Assembly (NCBI RefSeq): GCF_029633865.1 | Contig: NC_079215.1 | Coordinates: 48,693,843-48,757,842 of the forward strand | Source: Lampris incognitus | Lineage: Eukaryota; Chordata; Actinopteri; Lampriformes; Lampridae | DNA length: 64,000 nt | Reading direction: 5' to 3' | In this document: positions 1,378 through 59,475 of the stretch, one piece after another | How positions within the stretch are numbered: the stretch's first letter is position 1 | Layout: every line of letters starts with the position of its first letter | Program-made: the position numbers and the translations under genes | Notes under the pieces: generated by a model | What the model was told of the DNA's origin: nothing | Database searches by the model: none | The model's input: only the letters and a program-made list of their open reading frames with translations

Positions 1378-4300
1378 CTACTCATAGTCCTTGTAGTGAG
1401 CTGGTTTGGAAACAGCTCTTCCATATCTTGTGCGTACTGTCTTGTGTGTTTCACAGGTTTGGCTGGAAGAAGTTCCAGCTGCATGAGTGTCCTGTTGAGG
1501 TTCTGTGAAGCGGGTTCTTGTGCTCCTCAGTGCATTGGGGTGGTGAATTTCCCGCAGGTGGCTCCTGCCACGTCTGAGTTTGTTCCCATTTGATGTTTGC
1601 ACAATGTAGCTCCTTGGCTCATCGCACTTTTGTACGACGGTGGCTGGATACCAAGTCCCTTTTTCCTTGTTTAGGACAGATACGTGCTGTCCGGGACCGA
1701 GTGGAGGTAGTTCTCTGCTGCTGCTGCGGTCATGATGTTCCTTCATGTCTGCTGTTCTCTGCTCCAGGTGGAGTCGGTTTTCCTCCTTGCCTGGGTCCCC
1801 TCGACTCGGCAGCAGGGTGGTGACCGGCCTTCCGAAGATCAGTTCTGCTGGTGATGGTAGTTTACTGTCGATGGGTGTTGCTCTGACCTGTAGTAAGGCC
1901 ACTTGTATGTTACCTCCTTGTCTCATGGTTTTCTTCACAATGGATTTGATGTGTCGCACATGCCTCTCAATGAATCCATTGCTTTTTGGATAGTGGGGTG
2001 AGCTTGTCACGTGCCTGATTCCCCCGTCAGCCGTGAATTTCTGGAACGCCTGCCCTGTGTACTGGGGTCCATTATCTGTAAGTACCTCGTCAGGCCTTCC
2101 AAAAAGAGACATGTACATTTCCATTTTTTGTGCAACTGCCCGGCTGGACACAGGCATGGGCATTTCATCCACTAGAGGGAACTCAGAATATCTGTCCACA
2201 ATCAGTAAATACTGATGTCCATCGATCTCGAATAGATCAGAAGCTAGGGATTGCCATGGTTTTGACGGTGTGTTGTGTGGGTTGAGAGGTTGCTTTGGAT
2301 TTGCATCCTGATGTTCCACGCATACGCTACATGACCTGCAGACTCTTTCGATGTCATCGTTCATTCTGATCCAGTAGACACGTTCTCTCGCCAGTCGCCG
2401 TGTCTTTTCGATGCCCTGGTGTCCTATATGCAGCTGTTCAAGTATAGAATCAGTCATGGAGTCTGGGATGAGCACCTGTCTGCCTTTGAATATGACTCCT
2501 GCTTCAACTGCGAGCTCATCTCTGAATGACCAGTACTCACGTAGTTGTCTTGGTAGAGCTTTGATGTTGTCTGGCCATCCCTGGTGGATCAGCTCTTTCA
2601 GTGCATTGAGTCTGGGGTCGCTGGTGGTTTCCGTGCGGAGTGCGTCCTGTTTCTCGGGAGAGAGGTTTATCATTGCAACAGTGAGCATCTCTGGATCCTC
2701 GACTTCTGCCTCTATTCCATCAATGCGCTCGTCCAGCTCGATGTTGCTGTTGTTCTCGGGGTTGGGTAGTCGGCTGAGTGTGTCTGCCAGGACCATCTGG
2801 TTTCCTGGTCGATACGTGACCTCGTAGTTGTATCCTTGTGTTTTTATCAGCATTCGCTGAAGCCGTGGCGGGGCGGCATGCAGTGGCTTTGTGCATATGG
2901 TAACGAGGGGTTTGTGGTCTGTAACTACAATGAATGACTTCCCATACAGGTAGGTATGGTATCGCTGCATTCCGTAGACAATGGCCAGCATTTCTCGCTC
3001 TATGTTGCTGTACCTGGATTGGCAGTCGTCCAGTGTCTTTGAGCCAAAAGCTATGGGTCTTTTGTTCTGCACTAATGCCATGCCCAGTCCTTTCTGTGAT
3101 GCATCGACCTCAAGTGTCAGAGGTGTGCTTGGATCATAGTACTTCAGGCAGTCATGTTCGTTGATAACTGATTTCAGGTCCTCAAAGCTCTTTTGGTGGT
3201 CAGTGTCCCATGTCCAAGGCACATCACTTTTCAGTAGCACCCTCAGTGTGTGTGCTTTGTCTGCAAACTTTGGGATGTAGGGTGACAGGTAGGTCGGCAT
3301 CCCCAAGAATCTGCTCAGTTCATCTTTGTTCTGGGGTATCGGCATTTTCTGGATGTCCCTGATTTTGGCTGGGTCAGGTTTGATACCTTTGTCTGTGTAC
3401 AGGTTGCCAAAGAATGAGATGCTTGTCTGTTTGATTGTGCACTTGTCACTGTTGAACTCAATACCTGTCTTGGCTGCTCTGTCCATCAGGTTGGTCAGGT
3501 TCCTGTCATGCTCCTCTTTGCTTGCTCCGTAGACTGCGATATCATCGGCTATGCTGACGACACCGTCGAGCCCCTCCAGGATTTGGTCCATCTTTGCCTG
3601 GAAGAGATCTTGAGAGACACTGAGACCAAATGGCAAACGTTTCCAGCAGTATCTACCAAATGGAGTTCGGAATGTGGTTAGCAGTTGTGACTCTTCCTCC
3701 AGGTGTATTGACCAATATCCAGCTTTTGCATCAAGTTTGCTGAATATTTTTGCATTTGCAAACTTCGGGTTCAGTTCCTCCACAGTAGGAATCTTGTGTG
3801 GGCATCTCCTAAGGCTGGCATTAAGCTTTTGGGGGTCTAAGCATATACGAAGGGAACCGTCTTTCTTTGTGCTGTATGCCAGACTCGAGCACCAGTCTGT
3901 GTGCTGTTCTACTTTTCTTAACACATCTTGTTCGACTAGGTTATTCAGTTCATCTTTCAGTTTGTCTTTGATGTGAATGCTGCACTTCCGTGGTGGGTCT
4001 ATGAATGGTTCAGCATCCTTTTTCAGGAAGAGCTTGGCCTTTCCACTGAAGTTGCCAATTTTGTCAAACTGGTCTGGGTATGCTCTCTTTAGGTCTACAC
4101 TGTTAGATATGGTCATTTTGGGTTTTGTCTGTCTTGTGTTGACTTTTTTCTGGTTTGCATTTCCTTTCTCGGTCACTGCATCTACATTGACAGTCACTAG
4201 GTTTAACAGTTCACATGTTGGCAGCCCAACTATGGCTGGCCCTGGTACGTCTACAACATAGAACTTTGCATTGATCCATTTGGATTCTTTGTACTGGCAT

Positions 4301-4389
4301 GGAATGTCAACGGTGCCTAGGCAGGGGATGGCGTGACCACTGTATGCAGATAGCCTCCTGTTGGTTTTTTCAGTCGTTTCTGGGTGCAT
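1378..4389 (-). CDS. pol: Gypsy pol polyprotein: protease C-terminus, RT, RNase H, integrase
   Basis: A single uninterrupted frame of 1003 codons. Residues ~1-70 are the C-terminal half of an aspartic protease (a VGLPTCELL segment near residue 55). Reverse transcriptase spans ~120-330, with the KLDAKAGYW, LPFGLS and IADDIAVYG blocks; IADD replaces the usual YADD. RNase H spans ~425-545 (LEVDASQKGLG, IEREMLAI, VTDHKPL). Integrase follows, with an HHCC finger (HIGHQG ... CRSCSVC), a catalytic core with D in the LFEIDG block, D in LTDNGPQY and E in NGFIERH, then a basic C-terminus. The listed start is only the first Met of the open frame. The true protease start lies upstream in another frame (see 4362-4500), so the product is broken at its N-terminus. 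RT, RNase H and integrase look catalytically complete. Confidence 0.9.
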   Translation of the reverse strand: MHPETTEKTNRRLSAYSGHAIPCLGTVDIPCQYKESKWINAKFYVVDVPGPAIVGLPTCELLNLVTVNVDAVTEKGNANQKKVNTRQTKPKMTISNSVDLKRAYPDQFDKIGNFSGKAKLFLKKDAEPFIDPPRKCSIHIKDKLKDELNNLVEQDVLRKVEQHTDWCSSLAYSTKKDGSLRICLDPQKLNASLRRCPHKIPTVEELNPKFANAKIFSKLDAKAGYWSIHLEEESQLLTTFRTPFGRYCWKRLPFGLSVSQDLFQAKMDQILEGLDGVVSIADDIAVYGASKEEHDRNLTNLMDRAAKTGIEFNSDKCTIKQTSISFFGNLYTDKGIKPDPAKIRDIQKMPIPQNKDELSRFLGMPTYLSPYIPKFADKAHTLRVLLKSDVPWTWDTDHQKSFEDLKSVINEHDCLKYYDPSTPLTLEVDASQKGLGMALVQNKRPIAFGSKTLDDCQSRYSNIEREMLAIVYGMQRYHTYLYGKSFIVVTDHKPLVTICTKPLHAAPPRLQRMLIKTQGYNYEVTYRPGNQMVLADTLSRLPNPENNSNIELDERIDGIEAEVEDPEMLTVAMINLSPEKQDALRTETTSDPRLNALKELIHQGWPDNIKALPRQLREYWSFRDELAVEAGVIFKGRQVLIPDSMTDSILEQLHIGHQGIEKTRRLARERVYWIRMNDDIERVCRSCSVCVEHQDANPKQPLNPHNTPSKPWQSLASDLFEIDGHQYLLIVDRYSEFPLVDEMPMPVSSRAVAQKMEMYMSLFGRPDEVLTDNGPQYTGQAFQKFTADGGIRHVTSSPHYPKSNGFIERHVRHIKSIVKKTMRQGGNIQVALLQVRATPIDSKLPSPAELIFGRPVTTLLPSRGDPGKEENRLHLEQRTADMKEHHDRSSSRELPPLGPGQHVSVLNKEKGTWYPATVVQKCDEPRSYIVQTSNGNKLRRGRSHLREIHHPNALRSTRTRFTEPQQDTHAAGTSSSQTCETHKTVRTRYGRAVSKPAHYKDYE

Positions 4390-4500
4390 GCATTTTCACC
4401 GTACATCTGCTTGAAGGTACGTAATGGGAGTGTGTTGCCTGACGCACCTGTGTCTATCTTCAGACGTAGTGTGAAGTAGTGTGACGTTAGTTAGCTTTGC
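4362..4500 (-). pseudogene. Protease N-terminal part, out of frame with pol
   Basis: On the minus strand a DTGASGN active-site motif is encoded at about 4437-4460, preceded by RLKI and followed by a typical retropepsin flap-side segment. It lies in a different frame from the 1003-codon pol frame. The two frames meet near 4362-4385, where there is an A6 run on the coding strand. A 1-nt indel in that run, or a sequencing/assembly error, would explain the break. Without it the protease and pol would be one continuous polyprotein. Confidence 0.8.
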
Positions 4501-16381: not shown

Positions 16382-16478
16382 ATAGGAGCAGTGGGCAGCT
16401 GCAGCGCCCGAGGACCAACTCCAGTTCGTCTTTCCATTGCCTTGCTCAGGGGCACAGGCAGGAGTATTAACCCTAACA
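16382..16478 (-). mobile_element. SINE-2 fragment
   Basis: On the minus strand it matches the SINE-2 segment around 54040-54138 (AGGGTTAATACTCCTG, then TGTGCC...AAGGCA and the block before the insertion point). It abuts a SINE-1 copy head-to-body. Confidence 0.75.
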
Positions 16479-22961: not shown

Positions 22962-24071
22962 TCATGATGACATCAAAGAATGCATATTGAACAGATATAC
23001 ACTCACTGGCCACTTTATTAGGCACACCTTGCTAGTACCGGGTTGGACCCCTTTTGCCTTCAGAACCGCCTTAATCCTTCGTGGCATAGATTCAACAAGG
23101 TACTGGAAACATTCCTCAGAGACTTTGGTCCATATTGACATGATAGTATCACGCAGTTGCTGCAGATTTGTCGGCTGCACATCCATGATGCGAATCTCCC
23201 GGTCCACCACATCCCAAAGGTGCTCTATTGGATTGAGATCTGGTGACTGTGGAGGCCATTTGAGTACAGTGAACTCATTGTCATGTTCAAGAAACCAGTC
23301 TGAGATGATTTGAGCTTTATGACATGGCGCGTTATCCTGCTGGAAGTAGCCATCAGAAGATGGGAACACTGTGGTCATAAAGGGATGGACATGGTCAGCA
23401 ACAATACTCAGGTAGGCTGTGGCGTTGACATGATGCTCAATTGGTACTAAGGGGCCCAAAGTGTGCCAAGAAAATATCCCCCACACCATTACACCACCAC
23501 CACCAGCCTGATCCGTTGATACAAGGCAGGATGGATCCATGCTTTCATGTTGTTGATGCCAAATTCTGACCCTACCATCCGAATGTCGCAGCAGAAATCG
23601 AGACTCATCAGACCAGGCAACGTTTTTCCAATCTTCTATTGTCCAATTTTGGTGAGCCTGTGCGAATTGTAGCCTCAGTTTCCTGTTCTTAGCTGACAGG
23701 AGTGGCACCCGGTGTGGTCTTCTGCTGCTGTAGCCCATCTGCCTCAAGGTTCGATGTGTTGTGCATTCAGAGATACTCTTCTGCATACCTCGGTTGTAAT
23801 GAGTGGTTATTTGAGTTACTGTTGCCTTTCTGTCAGCTCGAACCAGTCTGGCCATTCTCCTCTGACCTCTGGCATCAACAAGGCATTTTCGCCCACAGAA
23901 CTGCCGCTCACTGGATATTTTCTCTTTTTCGGACCATTCTCTGTAAACCCTAGAGATGGTTGTGCATGAAAATCCCAGTAGATCAGCAGTTTCTGAAATA
24001 CTCAGACCAGCCCGTCTGGCACCAACAACCATGCCACGTTCAAAGTCACTTAAATCACCTTTCTTCCCCAT
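22962..24071 (-). CDS. Tc1/mariner transposase, unbroken, DD36E spacing
   Basis: 369 codons without a stop or frameshift. An N-terminal paired-like HTH spans residues ~8-45 and a second HTH ~65-115. The catalytic triad is D155 (AWSDES), D246 (FQQDNAPCH) and E283 (NPIEHLWD); 36 residues separate the second D from E, whereas classic Tc1 has 34. A glycine-rich GGGGVMVWG block lies at ~191. It would act in the nucleus, cutting and pasting the element through its TIRs at TA sites. The C-terminus reads through the left TIR ([12 protein letters not shown]) and uses a stop in flanking DNA at 22962, so the last ~12 residues are host-derived. Start: the first ATG of the HTH-containing frame. All catalytic residues are present; activity is untested. 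Confidence 0.93.
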
Positions 24072-24218
24072 TCTGATGCTCGGTCTGAACTGCAGCAGAT
24101 CGTCTTGACCATGTCTACATGCCTAAATGCATTAAGTTGCTGCCATGTGATTGGCTGATTAGAAATTTGGGTTAATGAGCAGTTGGACAGGTGTGCCTAA
24201 TAAAGTGGCTGGTGAGTG
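23000..24218 (-). mobile_element. Complete Tc1-like transposon, TA-flanked
   Basis: Inverted ends CACTCACTGGCCACTTTATT (left) and, on the other strand, CACTCACCAGCCACTTTATT (right) continue as AGGCACACCT, with two mismatches in about 30. TA lies immediately outside both ends (22998-22999, 24219-24220). At 1219 bp it has the normal length of an autonomous Tc1 element. It sits inside the 3' part of the plus-strand LINE. Confidence 0.95.
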
Positions 24219-51804: not shown

Positions 51805-53660
51805 ATGGCTGGTGTGAAAAAGCACAAAGTCGACCAAGAAAACCGTCAGTTCAAATCTGATGGGACTGATCAGTTTTTTTTTATTTCACTGGACCATGGC
51901 TATGCCAAACCGACATGCTTGATATACATGCAGACCGTAGTTGTCTGCAAAGCAGATAATCTCAAGCGGCACTTCAAACACTATGCATGCTGCCAGTTTT
52001 AATGCCAACTACCTCACAAGATCAGCTCACCACAAACAAAAAATAGCAAATAAGATGACATCATACAAGCACTCTGTTTCTACTATCTGTAAATCAACAT
52101 CCGCACAAGAGAGTGCAACAGCTGCATCATTGCATCTTTCATGGGACCTTTCGCTGATGCTGAGTTGAGTAAAACATGTGCGATTGATATGGTTGGTGAA
52201 ATTTAAGTCATGATGAACAACATAAAACAAGAAAATGGTTTTGGAGGTATTAAAGCAGGTGCCATTTGTCAACTAACATGGCAACAAGAAGAGTAGAACT
52301 TTTAGCGAAGGAGTGTCTTTCCAATCTACTCACCCATTTGAAGAAAGCAGAAGACATATCACTAGCCCTAGACCCGTCCTAGACCCGATGGAACTGATAT
52401 GGAACAGCTATCTGTGTTCGGAAGATTTTTTTGGTGGGAAGACCTTTTGGGATGAGATACTTTGTTTGCTTCCTCTGCCTGGGCGCACAACTGGGGAACC
52501 CATCTTTAATGAATCAACATAGTTCTTTGAGAAGAATGGCTTGGATGTGAGCAAAATTGTGTCTGTTGTCAATGATGGGGCTCTGTCAATGGTGGGGCAA
52601 CACAAGGGCTTGGTAAGCAGGCTTGCCACTGTTAACCCAGCCCTCTTAGCATTTCATTGCATTATTCCCAAATCAGTGTTGTAGATTAAACTGTGTGGGC
52701 AAATGAAAGAGGCGATGGATACTGTAACGAGACTGGTAAATATCATTCACGAGAGTCCTAGTCTGCAACATCGCCTTTACAGAGAATTGCTGGATAATGA
52801 TCTTTTGCTGCATAATGATGTTCGCTGGCTGAGCAAAGGCCATGTGTTGGAGAGGGTGTGCGACCTCCACAATGATCTTGTGTCATTTTTATCCAGACTG
52901 TGGAGCTACAAAGCCCAAGAATATCAGGGGATTTTAAGTGACAATAGGGTGATGGCATATGTTATTTTTTTGTGTGACATCATGTCTCATCTAAATCACC
53001 TTAATCTACAGTTACAAGGCAAGAACCACACTGTTGCAGACATGTACAAGGCGGTTGAAGCTTTCCAGTCAAAGGTGAACCTTTTGGGGAGAGACATTCA
53101 CGGGAGAAAGTTGCACTTTCCACATCTGCGGGAGCATTGCGAGAAGAACGAAATGGGGCAGGATCCAGCAAAGAAGGATTTCATGACGAGCCTGGCAGAA
53201 AACTTCAAAGAACAATTTGGAAGCTCCCCTAAAGTCTCAGGTGACATCCTCCTCTTCCTGAGACAGTCGCTCTTCTTTTTGGCTGATGGCAAGTGGACTA
53301 CAGAGGCCAAAAGGCTGATGATACCTGCCATAGATGAGGCAACTCTTCAGATGGAGGTCTTGGAGTTGGGAACATCTGATGTGCTCAAAGCACAACACAA
53401 GGACATTGGGGTGAGTGGCTTTTGGTTCAACGTGGTTCCTCAAGCTCGATTCAAAAACATGAGAGCTATTGCAATGCTCCTACTCACAATTTTCCCCTCT
53501 ACGTGAGTCATCGTTTTCTTCAATGAACCCGACCAAGAACCAGGTAAGAAACAGACTCTCCAATGCACATCTGGTCCAGTGCCTCAGGCTTGCCACAACA
53601 GAATACAGGCCCGACATCAGGAGGATTGCCTCATCCCGTCACTCTCACTTCTCTCACTGA
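51805..53660 (+). pseudogene. hAT transposase relic (ZBED/EPM2AIP1/GTF2IRD2-like)
   Basis: The N-terminus has a decayed BED-type finger: KPTCLIYMQTVVVCKADNLK then RHFKHY, with the second Cys changed to Tyr. Stops follow in 51990-52690, with fragments such as KNGLDVSKIVSVVNDGALSM. A 267-codon open piece at 52703-53506 carries HNDVRWLSKGHVLERVCDL and NHTVADMYKAVEAFQSKVNL, the mid-catalytic region of this hAT branch. After a frameshift near 53490 the dimerisation segment (CESSFSSMNPTK-like, LSNAHLVQCLRLATTEYRPD) ends at ~53660. This branch has been domesticated repeatedly in vertebrates, but the stops make this copy non-functional. Confidence 0.87.
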
Positions 53661-53862: not shown

Positions 53863-54138
53863 GGGTGGCAAGGTGGCACAGTGATTAGCCTCACAAAAAG
53901 AATGTCCTGGGTTCGAACCCCAGGGTTGTCCAACCTTAGGGGTCATCCCAGGCTGTCCTCTGTGTGGAGTTTGCATGTTCTCGCCATATCTGTGGTGGGT
54001 TTTCTCCGGGTGCTGTGGTTTCCCCCCCCATCAAAAAGACATGCATGTTAGGGTTAATACTCCTGTCTGTGCCTTTGACCAAGGCACGGCAAGACAACCT
54101 GGAGTAGGTCCCCGGGTGCTGCATGGCGGTTGCCCTGT
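53863..54138 (+). mobile_element. SINE-2 copy, 5' portion
   Basis: tRNA-like head (GGTGGCACAGTGATTAGCC and GGGTTCGAACCCCAGGG, a clear B box and T-arm), then GTGTGGAGTTTGCATGTTCT, TTTCTCCGGGTGCTGTGG, AAAGACATGCATGTTAGG and TGCATGGCGGTTGCCC. It stops in mid-SINE at 54138; the rest resumes at 58013 (TGTGCTCCTAGCTACACAGC, then GGGTTAAATGCAGAGCAGAA). Confidence 0.88.
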
Positions 54139-54450
54139 TAGTCTAGTCAGTTAAGGCAAAATGGCTGCAAAAAGTCATTCACATTTGAGCCTATGTTTTT
54201 CTGTTAATTTAGAGTCCAATAAAGAAAAAAATGCAAGGAGCCCAAAATTTTAGGTGGGGGAAGTCTCTGAAATGGCCACGCCCACTTTTTAGGCCTGGAA
54301 ATCAGTATCTCGGCTCCTGAATGTCGCAGAGAGCTGATCATGGGCTCAAAAGAAGCAGAAGCACCACATTTATATAAGCATTATGAACAAACATATACCC
54401 CAAAACCTTTACTTTTTCAGATATTTTAAGAAAACTAATTTTTACTGGTC
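54139..54450 (+). repeat. Left terminal inverted repeat
   Basis: Inverted match of 57691-58012, including AGTCATTCACATTTGAGCC, TGGCCACGCCCACTTTTTAG and AACATATACCCCAAAACC. The right copy has an extra ~8 bp near its tip (GTCAAGG region). Confidence 0.95.
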
Positions 54451-55289
54451 ACGTTTCACGTATCAGCTCCTGAAGGTTGTAAAAAGCTATATTTGACATG
54501 AATCTCATTCGCTGCCTATGTTATAAAGCATGAAGCACAATACACACACGAATCATGAGTTTAGAAAATATCTTAGTTGTCTGTGGTTCTTCTTATCACT
54601 TGGGATGTAATGCCGCCTCTGACCACAATTACAAATTGGCGCTGTTTGTTTATCAAGTGGTTGATTCTACAGGAAAGGAAGCAGAAGTGCACATGTTTCA
54701 GTAAAGCTAGTTTACTGTAAACATTTGCCAAAATATGACATGCATGCCTCATCTGGCCTTCATATCAGTGAGTTAATTTGTTCCTGACCTCGTGGATGGA
54801 TGGTAAGGAACAGTGTTGTTTTATTTTTGTATGTTTACCTTGTAAAACATTATTTTCACCTTAGCTCATATGTGTAGGCCTAACTAGCCTTGCAAGCATG
54901 ACTTGCTCGATACACTCGACAGCACAGTTGCACAGTTGTAGTATTTGGCTAAGGCATTACCTACTTTTGGACAGTTGGTGTTTGTGTGTCTGCTTGCTCT
55001 ACACATGTTGGTTAATTTTGGGCATTTTTAGTTGGCTGGTATGAAAGGGTGAAAGTATTTGTAGTAACAACACTTTTATTATGCTATATTTGGACACACT
55101 TTTATTGGACTATATTTTGTATCTATGCAGAAGAATAAATAACATTGTTTATTGCATGCTATTTTTGTGGGAGGGTGGATGTATTGTGCCATACCAGTGA
55201 AACATCACTCTGTTACAAACTTGTGTACAGAAAAATCAAGTTTAAATTAGTTCTGATTTTCCATGATCAGATGATCCCCCATCCTAACT

Positions 55290-57289
55290 ATGGAACTAGG
55301 GAACAAGACCCTGTGCATTGTCTGCAAGGTTAGTTTTCACGTGTGTGCTTCAGTAGTATAATGTTTATGACATCAATGAGTCCAACAGTGTTAGTTTTCA
55401 TGCGTATTCCTTCAGTAATGTAATGTTTATGACAGCAATGAGTCCAACATTTCATTTCTAAATTCATGACAGGAATCTGGTGGAAGGGACATAACTGCTG
55501 TCACAGCTCCTAAGCTGCTTCACCAAGTAAAACTGTTTTTTTGGAATCCGGACTGATCACCAATGATGCGGATATCAATCTTTCACAGAGACTGTCAGCT
55601 GTCAATGCAGAAACTTTACAGGATGGATATAAAATCCACAAGAGTTGCTATGATCGCTATAATAACAGCCATTTCAATTGTGCGAAGGATCGTAAACGGA
55701 AAAGAGAACTGGATCTTGCAGATCACCAGACTATTGGGGCAAACACACGAGCAAAGGCTGGGCCTAGTCTTGCGTTTGGAGCCGAACTTTGCTTCTATTG
55801 TGAAGAGCCAGCCATTGAGAACCCTCGGAAGAAGGACAAATCAGAACCATTGTTAGCTGCTGCGGGAAAAGAAAAGTCAGCAAAACATGTGAAGGATTTC
55901 ACAGACAATCTAGAGATGATGGCCAAAGTCCTGAATGATGGCAAAATACTCAGATTACTTGAAACTGATGTTAGATCACGGGAGTTATTCTATCACAGGA
56001 AGTGCCACTCAAGATACCGTAACAGGTGAGCCAGCACAACATACCCTTTTAAGTTCAATTCTTAAGTTGAGCTATAGTCGGGCCATATACATATATTTTA
56101 ATAATTTGATTATTTCTTCTTACTAGATACAGTTCAGCGAGCTGCAGGATAAAGCAAGAAAGAACTTCATCACAGAACTCCCCAGACATGATCCAGTATG
56201 CTGAATATATCGCCATGGAGGAAGTAGGGAACTTCATTGATGACAGCTCAGAAAATGTTTTTGATCTTCACAAACTCGAGAATATTTATCTGCAGAAAGT
56301 TGAAGATTTGGGCTTCGACCGGCCCAAATCTCACTCTACACGATTTGCTGAGAAACTCTCGAACAGCTGTCTGGACATAAATGTAGTGCAGAAAGAGACA
56401 GGGGCACATTACAGGGTTATTAAGAAGGGTAGTTTGGACAATGTAATCAGTGACAGTGACTTTTTAGATTCACTTTGCAAAGTCACAAAACCTGTTCGGG
56501 CTGAAGTAATAAAGAATCGAAGAGACAGTGAAAGCACCCGACTTTCAGACTTGTCTACAGAAGGACTACGGATGAAGAGCAATTTCAAACTGAAGATGCT
56601 GATGTCACTGCTTTGTGATGGAACCGCACGATATGAAGATCTTCCGATGCATCTCGAACAACTGTGCCAGACCGTAAGTTTCAACACCAGGATCAGACCA
56701 AATACAAAGAAAGATTCACAGCAGTCAAGCTCTGTCATCCAAAAGAGGCACAGGTCAGTGGAAGAGCCTGTGAATCGATATCTGACCCTGAAGCTCTATG
56801 CAATGACGAGAAGCAAGAATGTGTTACAGACAACATTTGAACTAGGTCTGACACATTCCTACTGTTCCACCCTTATCTGCATTGACAAAATCTCCCTGTC
56901 AATGAGAGAGCTCTTCCTAAGATCACAGGGAAAGGTGCTACCCCACGCCTTGAGACAAGGGTTATTTACCACATTTACAGATGACAACATAAATGAGCAG
57001 AGTTCATCGCCTACAGCATCTGTTGAGAGCTACATTCCAGGCAGGATGGCTGTGGGGAAACAGCCTGCTACAACTCCCTTGTCCCCCTGTCATTGAATGG
57101 GGTTGGACTACCGAAGGAGAGGAACTCTTCGTCAAGTGGAGCACAGTTTCCACAAGAGATACATTGTCTCAAGTAACAGGGGTGTGTAGTTGCAGATCTA
57201 ATAAGTGTACCTCATGTTCTTGTGCTGGCAGAGGGATGAAATGTCTCATTTATTGCAAGTGCCTCAGCAAGTGTTTGAATCCAGTCTGA
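55290..57289 (+). pseudogene. Putative transposase gene of the long-TIR element, internally deleted
   Basis: Inferred exon 1 55290-55328 (MELGNKTLCIVCK), intron with GT/AG, exon 2 55473-56025, GT-AG intron 56026-56126 that restores frame (phase 2), exon 3 from 56127. Two zinc-binding modules are visible: CIVCK with HKSCYDRY, and CFYCEEP with FYHRKCHSRY. Then comes a conserved mid-region (DSDFLDSLCKVTKPVRAEVI, ...LSMRELFLRSQGKVLPHALR, FTTFTDDNIN). At about 56990 the sequence jumps, out of frame, to a C-terminal part with RVHRLQHLLRATFQAGW and a cysteine-rich end: CSCRSNKCTSCSCAGRGMKC with CLIYCKCLSKC. The central, probably catalytic, domain is therefore missing. A 1-nt slip also occurs in the T7 run near 55536. 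Function as a transposase is inferred from position only. Confidence 0.78.
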
Positions 57290-57307
57290 TGGGATGTGTG
57301 AGGTTAA

Positions 57308-57313
57308 AATAAA
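57308..57313 (+). terminator. Poly(A) signal of the long-TIR element gene
   Basis: AATAAA lies 19 bp after the TGA that ends the cysteine-rich domain, followed by a T-rich stretch. Confidence 0.6.
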
Positions 57314-57519
57314 GATTTTTTTGGACCTCACATGGTTTGCTTTGTTTCTTTGGTGGTTACTGGGTTCCTCCTCTTATAACAAAGAGTCAACTTGAATACT
57401 AGCACTCCATGAGTAGATGTAACACTTTTACTCAAACAAACTGTATAGCCTTCTTGCACAGATTTGGCTAAAGTTGATTGCATGCTGCTGATCAATTCAA
57501 TGGAAAAAAGAACATGTTC

Positions 57520-57880
57520 ATGAATAGCTCAAAACGTGAAGGTTTTAGGGCATACAGTATATTTGTTCAGAGCACTAATATAAATAGTTATTTCCACATC
57601 TTTTGAGCCCAATATCAACTCGGGGCAACCTCCGAGAGCTGAGCCTGAGATATAGTCCCAGGGCTAAAAAGTGGGCGTGGCCATGTATGTGACCAGTGAA
57701 AATTAGTTTTTTGTAAATACCTGAAAAAGTAAAGGTTTTGGGGTATATGTTTGTTCATAATGCTTATATAAATGTGGTGCTTCTGCTTCTTTTGAGCCCA
57801 TGATCAGCTCTCTGCGACATTCAGGAGCCGAGATACTGATTTCCAGGCCTAAAAAGTGGGCGTGGCCATTTCAGAGACTT
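57520..57880. repeat. Subterminal direct repeat, two ~170-bp units
   Basis: Unit 1 (~57520-57690) and unit 2 (~57711-57880) share AAGGTTTT..GGGTATA, TTTTGAGCCCA, GAGCTGAGCCTGAGATA / GAGCCGAGATACTGAT and CTAAAAAGTGGGCGTGGCCA. Unit 2 lies within the right TIR; unit 1 is inside it and more diverged. Repeated subterminal motifs often bind transposase. Confidence 0.82.
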
Positions 57881-58012
57881 CCCCCACCTAAAATTTTGGG
57901 CTCCTTGCATTTTTTTCTTTATTGGACCCTAAATTAACAGAAAAACATTGGCTCAAATGTGAATGACTTTTTGCAGCCTTGACCCCATATTTGCCCTTAA
58001 CTGACCAGACTA
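57691..58012 (-). repeat. Right terminal inverted repeat
   Basis: Inverted match of 54139-54450, ending CCAGACTA at 58012 directly before TGT of the interrupted SINE-2. Confidence 0.95.
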
Positions 58013-58078
58013 TGTGCTCCTAGCTACACAGCTACAATGGGTTAAATGCAGAGCAGAATTTCCCCACATGGATTTTTT
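58013..58078 (+). mobile_element. SINE-2 copy, 3' portion
   Basis: Continuation of the SINE at 53863-54138 after the inserted element: CTCCTAGCTACACAGC, GGGTTAAATGCAGAGCAGAA, TTTCCCCACATGG. Confidence 0.85.
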
Positions 58079-58084
58079 TTGGTT

Positions 58085-58490
58085 TAAAATGTATTTTAAC
58101 TGATGATGCTGGTCGCGTGGTTTGGGTCCTGGACTGTTCCGTTGGCATCTGGACACTGCTTGGCTTCCTGTGCATCATGTTCTTCATAAATTTTATGTCC
58201 ATTATAATTCTGTTATCCTCTTTCAATGTTGTATTATGTAAATTGTGTGAACACAACATCCATTGCACGCTGTCCGTCTTGGGAGAGAGATTCCTCCTCT
58301 GTTGCTCTCCCTGAGGTTTCTTCCTATTTTTTTCTCCCTGTTAAAGGTTTTTTTAGAGAGTTGTTCCTTATCCGATGAGAGGGTCTAAGGACAGGATGTT
58401 GTGTTGCTGTTAAGCCCACTGAGGCAAATTTGTAATTTGTGATATTGGGCTATACAAATAAAATTGAATTGAATTGAATCAATAAAGTAT
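58085..58490 (+). mobile_element. Teleost retroposon ending in GAATT repeats
   Basis: CATCCATTGCACGCTGTCCG, GAGGTTTCTTCC, TTATCCGATGAGAGGGTC, GAGGCAAATTTGTAATTTGT and TTGGGCTATACAAATAAAA followed by (GAATT)3 form a repeat end I recognise from many fish genomes. The source family is not named here. Non-coding. Confidence 0.7.
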
Positions 58491-58638
58491 CTCAAAATAA
58501 AAAAAAAAGCAACATCTGCACATAAAACAACATTTGCAGGCAAAATGACCCCCCCCCCCGCCCCACAGATGGTTTGGCCCTTGGCTTGGCATGCATGACA
58601 TGATTTGGCCCTTGGGGAGCTAATTGGGGAACCCCGGA

Positions 58639-59475
58639 CTATATTGCTCTGTTTGTGCCAGAGATCCTTGGGGTGCACCAATTTCTGGCGCAGCATGTTT
58701 TGGGGTTTGAAAGTAACTGAGACGTGCTGTTTGGAGAAAATGCATCTCAACTGTTCCGACACTCCCACCACATACAGTATCACCACTGGTTTACGCTTAG
58801 GTAGCGGTTGTCCTCTTTTCAATTGGCTGGTGCACTGTTTGGGCATCTTCCTGGCTTTGACAAATGCCCAGTTAGGATAACCACACTTAGCCAGGGCCTG
58901 TTTAATTTGGGATTTCTCCCCTTCCCCAGCTGCTGTGTTGGTGGAGACGTTGTCAGCTCGGTGGTGCAGCGTCCTGATGACTCCTAGTTTGTGCTCCAGT
59001 GGATGATGAGAGTCAAACCTTAAGTACTGATCAGTATGTGTTGGTTTATGGTCAACATCAACAATCAAATGTCCCCCATCACCAATTGCAATTTCACCAT
59101 CTAAGAAGGCTAACCTGTCATTTTTCACATCCTTCCTGGTGAACTTGATGTGGTTGGTCACAGATTTAATGTGGTCGGAAGAGTGTTGCCATCTTACAAT
59201 GCTGTGATTGCAGCTAATCCCCAATCCACTGTGAATAATACTTGTAGCCATTTTAAATCTCATTAATGGTCACAGCATTTGCATGTGAAACTGATCGTTG
59301 GTTTCGGTTGTGACACAACTGCTCCTGTTTTGGTCATTATGCCCCAGTATTGTTTAAAAGGGTGGGGATATCTGCAGTCAGCTGAGACTGAAGAGGTCTC
59401 TTAGATGAGTGATGAAATGTTTCTCTGACTAAACCTTGTGCCCAGATGAACTGATTCAACATTCTGGGATTTGCT
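58639..59475 (-). pseudogene. Penelope-like element, 5' part: RT C-terminus and inverted pLTR piece
   Basis: The minus frame from ~59263 to 58639 reads DHIKSVTNHIKFTRKDVKND, RLAFLDGEIAIGDGGH, VDHKPTHTDQYLRFDSHHPL, ADNVSTNTAAGEGEKSQIKQ and NMLRQKLVHPKDLWHKQSNI, the palm/thumb-to-linker part of a Penelope-like RT. It ends exactly at the hAT boundary. The RT catalytic YADD region lies further 5' and is missing, so the copy is 5'-truncated. 59268-59475 is an inverted copy of the pLTR segment at 50375-50550, a structure known for truncated Penelope insertions. Confidence 0.85.

Follow-up and report, generated by a model that had tools for sequence, protein, structure and literature searches.

A probable AcademX-like DNA transposon and its internally deleted copies in the opah (Lampris incognitus) genome

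The element at positions 54139–58012 of a 64,000-nucleotide stretch of opah DNA (Lampris incognitus, contig NC_079215.1, positions 48,693,843–48,757,842; the whole stretch is called the window here) very probably belongs to the Academ superfamily of DNA transposons, as a non-autonomous copy, with an internal deletion, of a young AcademX-like cut-and-paste element. It is filed there because the family combines a predicted DDE-like core, a region homologous to XPG/FEN1 nucleases and 3-bp target-site duplications, a combination that matches AcademX as described in PMC10045372. A sequence-only reading of the window had reported an unclassified DNA transposon with a zinc-finger or cysteine-rich gene, and had supposed that full-length relatives exist and that this copy has lost its catalytic core. 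Both suppositions proved right: a 6,833-bp element (L019) with the same ends as the window copy occurs in the same genome, and the window copy is 2,959 bp shorter. The label “unclassified” is probably wrong, the Academ filing being made by feature description.

The insertion and its target site

The element is a complete insertion within a short interspersed element (SINE), and the TGT on either side of it is the target duplication. Its termini read TAGTCTRGTCAGTTAAGG (at 54139) and CCAGACTA (at 58012), that is, TAGTCT...AGACTA. The inverted ends are 98% complementary over an ungapped 290-nt pair, and 306 of 324 alignment columns are identical between the left 314 bp and the right 324 bp, so that the long near-identical ends first reported are borne out. 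Without the element and one TGT the host SINE reads GCCCTGTGCTCC, and another copy of this SINE elsewhere in the window (16400–16478, minus strand), which has no insertion, reads GCCCACTGCTCC at the corresponding site; the final SINE bases at the insertion point were matched by eye, the BLAST alignment ending before them. This comparison and the host-genome copies place the transposon ends and the TGT duplication exactly where they had been proposed. A subterminal repeat lies directly inside the right terminal inverted repeat (72% identity to the terminal repeat; score 69, where 200 shuffles reached no more than 18.5), and the corresponding stretch inside the left end is only marginal (score 20.5 against a shuffle maximum of 18.5).

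The full-length element and its predicted protein

The 1.48-Gb Lampris incognitus assembly was searched for further copies. The terminal repeat (54140–54440) is 100% identical at all 40 scored places, which are the best 40 of 310 candidates. The window copy corresponds to the first 2,881 and last 1,002 bases of the L019 element, with 99.7% and 99.8% identity, and the 11-bp repeat CTACAGCATCT occurs at both deletion edges in L019 (2871 and 5832) and once in the window copy. A search with core DNA gave 126 candidate places, and 20 of the 40 scored match all 2,401 bases; two of these complete matches (L031 and L034) proved to belong to the 364/2935 deletion class, and the reading-frame count of long copies was made without them and without L033. 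Some long copies encode an uninterrupted predicted protein.

The L019 element is predicted to encode, in four exons, a 1,514-residue protein whose parts are two CxxC/HxxC modules, a DDE-like core, a nuclease-like region and a C-terminal CXC domain. The core is predicted to be RNase-H-like with a helical insertion, and D483, D660 and E874 are candidate catalytic residues; the putative XPG/FEN1-like region retains acidic motifs. The sole Pfam names obtained for the opah protein are DUF6589, which stays below its cut-off, and COG5_C in exon 3, at chance level; at E 0.1 the two main exons have no match to a helicase family. The DUF6589 match coincides with a late portion of the DDE-like core (P0007 420–552; L019 exon 3); this family of unknown function may be a piece of a transposase core, and a literature word search that paired DUF6589 with “transpos” found no paper. 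Structure-comparison lists do not cover every DDE family, and absence from them carries no meaning.

Gene remnants in the window copy

The zinc-finger and cysteine-rich gene parts are real. Among the window's 2,110 open segments of at least 20 residues, a family profile of 62 relatives matches only three (E ≤ 10), all of them inside the element and in family order. They correspond to family positions 59–178 (8.8e-10), 182–468 (2e-28; the exon 3 part) and 1390–1477 (9.9e-10; the C-terminal part in the exon 4 remnant), and positions 469–1389 are absent. Two C2HC-like modules had been proposed; each of three motifs, HxxC in module 1 and CxxC and HxxC in module 2, is kept by at least 97% of 79 relatives that exceed 1,370 residues, and the first CxxC of module 1 falls below that level, some relatives being without that end. 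Pfam gives no match above cut-off for the three window pieces (HECA_N 0.011, TCR 0.65), and TCR reaches 10.8 bits on the C-terminal segment.

The counterpart of predicted exon 1 can be placed in the L019 element, with the donor GTTAGT, and its 13 residues are the start of the annotated opah protein P0001 (LOC130127994). The exon 2 reading frame is broken in the window copy (553 nt against 551 nt in L019) and the exon 4 remnant is out of frame with exon 3, with a stop at 57287–57289. The window copy cannot make the enzyme. The motif SSSPTAS adjoins and overlaps the deletion repeat; its assignment to the core sequence only was rejected, because both frames there match the family.

Deletion classes and an annotated gene

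A 131-bp stretch across the window's junction is 100% identical at seven places in the genome, the window included, among 40 scored of 148 candidates; in the same scored set, 16 further places match the left side only, as expected of full-length copies, and 17 match the right side only. The window's deletion derivative has therefore itself multiplied. Among 20 terminal-repeat places fetched for class comparison, two are long copies (L019 and L021, the latter without its right end), eleven carry the 444/3296 deletion, three the 2306/5879 deletion (L017, L025 and L028), two the 637/3725 deletion, and one each the 364/2935 and 2701/6312 deletions. With that of the window, six different junctions are known.

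The 2306/5879 junction would, if the exons are joined as supposed, encode the last residues of the LOC130127994 protein. This protein is 100% identical to the window protein over the aligned stretch (55% of the query) and looks like the product of a sister deletion class, 2306/5879, of the same transposon; it differs from the window copy in its internal deletion and in having exon 2 in frame. The annotation as a RefSeq gene and the apparent fit of its last residues could be taken to mean that the short gene is a domesticated host regulator or repressor with zinc modules, derived from the transposon. Six different deletion junctions, very young copies, fresh flanking duplications and the out-of-frame exon 2 of the window copy make that highly improbable. 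LOC130127994 looks like a transposon fragment, since the 2306/5879 class would encode the end of its protein.

Target duplications and age

Of 20 insertions in which both ends are present, the window's included, 19 are flanked by an exact 3-bp duplication (L021 stands outside this count, its right end being missing). Flank identity is of length 3 alone in 18 of the 20, of lengths 2 and 3 in one and of neither in one, and no 8-bp identity occurs. A further set shows the duplication in all seven copies counted (L033, whose left end was not located by the anchor, is outside this count). Same-junction copies show it in three of six; the remaining three comprise one with unlike flanks, one with its right end off the expected place and one without flank sequence. 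Pooled, the three sets give 29 of 33. The copies in the host genome thus share both their ends and 3-bp duplications, and the absence of these, which would speak against a transposon, was not encountered. The single miss in the first set is L028, in which the terminal 16 bases are tandemly repeated outside the element end (locus position 3301 onward), with a matching AGA beyond; this is possibly a re-insertion at the element's own terminus, or slippage of the terminus.

The 19 duplications comprise 17 different triplets, with TTA occurring only twice. The sequence-only reading could not match the element to Tc1, hAT, Harbinger, CACTA, Kolobok or piggyBac, and duplication length or sequence, or the termini, uphold this for each. 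Tc1/mariner elements duplicate TA, and piggyBac and Kolobok duplicate TTAA, neither of which is seen here; hAT makes 8-bp duplications and Transib 5-bp ones, and hAT is rejected on the lack of 8-bp flank identity. The hAT (Hermes), Transib and RAG1 proteins are also not known to carry such a nuclease domain. Duplications of 3 bp in Harbinger and 2–4 bp in CACTA and Chapaev would fit those groups, and an assignment to PIF/Harbinger, CACTA or Chapaev is nevertheless extremely improbable: the variety of triplets is at odds with the TWA/TTA target of PIF/Harbinger, the TAGTCT termini are unlike the CACTA/CACTG ends of CACTA (EnSpm), and full-length proteins of the family have an XPG-type nuclease.

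Within one class, eleven copies show a mean difference of 0.17% and a maximum of 0.28%; 28 of the variants are singletons and 5 are shared. At fish substitution rates of a few 1e-9 per site and year, this would place the burst within roughly the last half million years.

Relatives of the protein and classification

The nearest protein is that of LOC130127994. A first search with the window protein returned only this host fragment and one unnamed relative, and a query with the missing core replaced by a run of X had no match at E ≤ 1. A bait sequence matched 593 proteins at ≤1e-10; among the 120 listed, the few named relatives come from ray-finned fish, hagfish, crab, coral, sea anemone and annelid, with Nematostella and Capitella represented. 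The N-terminal and middle part of the window protein matches 101 of a set of 121 proteins below 1e-5 (best 5.6e-27; best of 100 shuffles 1.6e-4; E-values for the set of 121). The short C-terminal part matches weakly, at E ≤ 100 in 50 of the 121 (best 6.4e-6), a few of these matches falling outside the C-terminus, and no shuffle matched. No relative was found in viral contigs, in phages (searched with the mid-region only) or in prokaryote genomes, and a PDB sequence-profile search gave no match at E 10. The opah core is 25–29% identical to 31 aligned relatives (alignment A4, in which P0075 lacks part of the core and was entered twice, is left out).

This distance, the sparse Pfam result and the absence of Academ from the names shown in the 120 listed relatives, most of them nameless, leave some room for a superfamily of its own, so far without a name, that has the plan of DDE core, XPG-type nuclease and CXC domain in common with Academ and is not Academ. 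That alternative is unlikely: almost the entire opah protein is covered by the family profile, and relatives occur in Nematostella and Capitella, with papers reporting a Capitella Academ and an Academ-1_NV. We take NV to stand for Nematostella vectensis.

The Academ nuclease is XPG-like, and in the opah family a nuclease-like region stands beside the predicted transposase core. Classification as AcademX-like is further consistent with the 3 or 4 bp duplications attributed to AcademX in PMC10045372, which gives 9 or 10 bp for AcademH and ties the difference to nuclease versus helicase; the 3-bp duplications and nuclease of the opah family agree with the former and weigh against an unnamed superfamily. 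AcademH is of the same superfamily by name and differs in its helicase and 9 or 10 bp duplications (PMC10045372); the opah duplications are of 3 bp, and its two main exons match no Pfam helicase family at E 0.1. With AcademX in the Repbase classification the opah family has in common the 3-bp duplications, a predicted DDE-like core and a nuclease in one protein and a full length of several kb, and it differs as a distinct lineage by its core identity. Academ is present in teleosts and rare there (0.01–0.02% of the zebrafish, medaka and stickleback genomes and absent from Tetraodon, according to PMC4746887), and the opah family differs from it in being very young with amplified deletion derivatives. 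The word Academ is absent from the main texts of two teleost surveys that name Lampris (PMC11785729, PMC10546739). No paper was found with Academ, XPG and transposon as whole words, and no report of the opah family was found in literature searches that were mostly not aimed at Lampris by name.

Proposed mechanism and significance

To our knowledge, the working of a transposase fused to a flap-type nuclease has not been described from experiment. In the mechanism proposed here, the terminal and subterminal repeats would be bound by the zinc modules and the CXC domain, and the DDE-type core (candidates D483, D660 and E874) would cut and rejoin DNA with a 3-bp stagger. The nuclease might trim or open structured ends that arise at excision or joining. 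Deleted copies, the window element among them, would depend on a full-length copy for protein acting in trans. The window element lost 2,959 bp between the two 11-bp repeats, a pattern that interrupted gap repair or slippage would leave, and the resulting derivative then spread. The opah family, very probably of Academ type, is very young and possibly still mobile. That it moves today, with the XPG/FEN1-type nuclease as an obligate DDE partner (for the 3-bp stagger or end processing) and with derivatives mobilised in trans, is a tentative proposal that we hold with less than even confidence. The value of the window element lies in its intact-looking relatives in the same genome; with uninterrupted copies and natural deleted donors with intact ends, the link between nuclease or helicase and duplication length would be directly testable in this family. 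Activity of the superfamily is not unprecedented, because one Academ-1 gain is recorded in Daphnia mutation-accumulation lines in PMC8594854.

Features of the element and neighbouring open frames

Table 1. Features of the window copy (window coordinates)
Feature	Positions	Strand	Basis
Left target-site duplication copy, TGT	54136..54138	.	Sequence reading, terminal-repeat and flank comparison
Left terminal inverted repeat, 314 bp, terminus TAGTCTAGTCAGTTAAGG	54139..54452	+	Terminal-repeat alignment, host-genome matches
Predicted exon 1, MELGNKTLCIVCK, first CxxC	55290..55328	+	
Predicted exon 2, HxxC of module 1 and module 2	55473..56025	+	Family profile 8.8e-10
Exon 3, 5' portion, upstream of the core and running to just past the first conserved Asp (DDNIN)	56127..57021	+	
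Deletion junction, single copy of 11-bp repeat CTACAGCATCT	57011..57021	+	Comparison with L019 element
3' part of exon 4, end of nuclease region and C-terminal CXC (Tesmin/TSO1-like) segment	57011..57289	+	
Subterminal repeat, diverged partial copy of terminal repeat	57523..57684	-	
Right terminal inverted repeat, 324 bp	57689..58012	-	Terminal-repeat alignment
Right target-site duplication copy, TGT	58013..58015	.	Sequence reading, terminal-repeat and flank comparison

Four further open frames were noted in the window. A 1,005-residue frame at 1378–4395 (minus strand) with reverse transcriptase, RNase H and integrase domains is a retroelement pol, and a 386-residue frame at 22962–24122 (minus strand) with HTH_Tnp_Tc3_2 and DDE_3 is a Tc1-like transposase; neither has an internal stop. 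The 273-residue frame at 52685–53506 (plus strand), without a Pfam match at E 0.1, presumably resembles a hAT/ZBED-derived protein. Adjoining the element, a 294-residue frame at 58385–59269 (minus strand), without a Pfam match at E 0.01, is one that we take to resemble the end of a Penelope-type reverse transcriptase.
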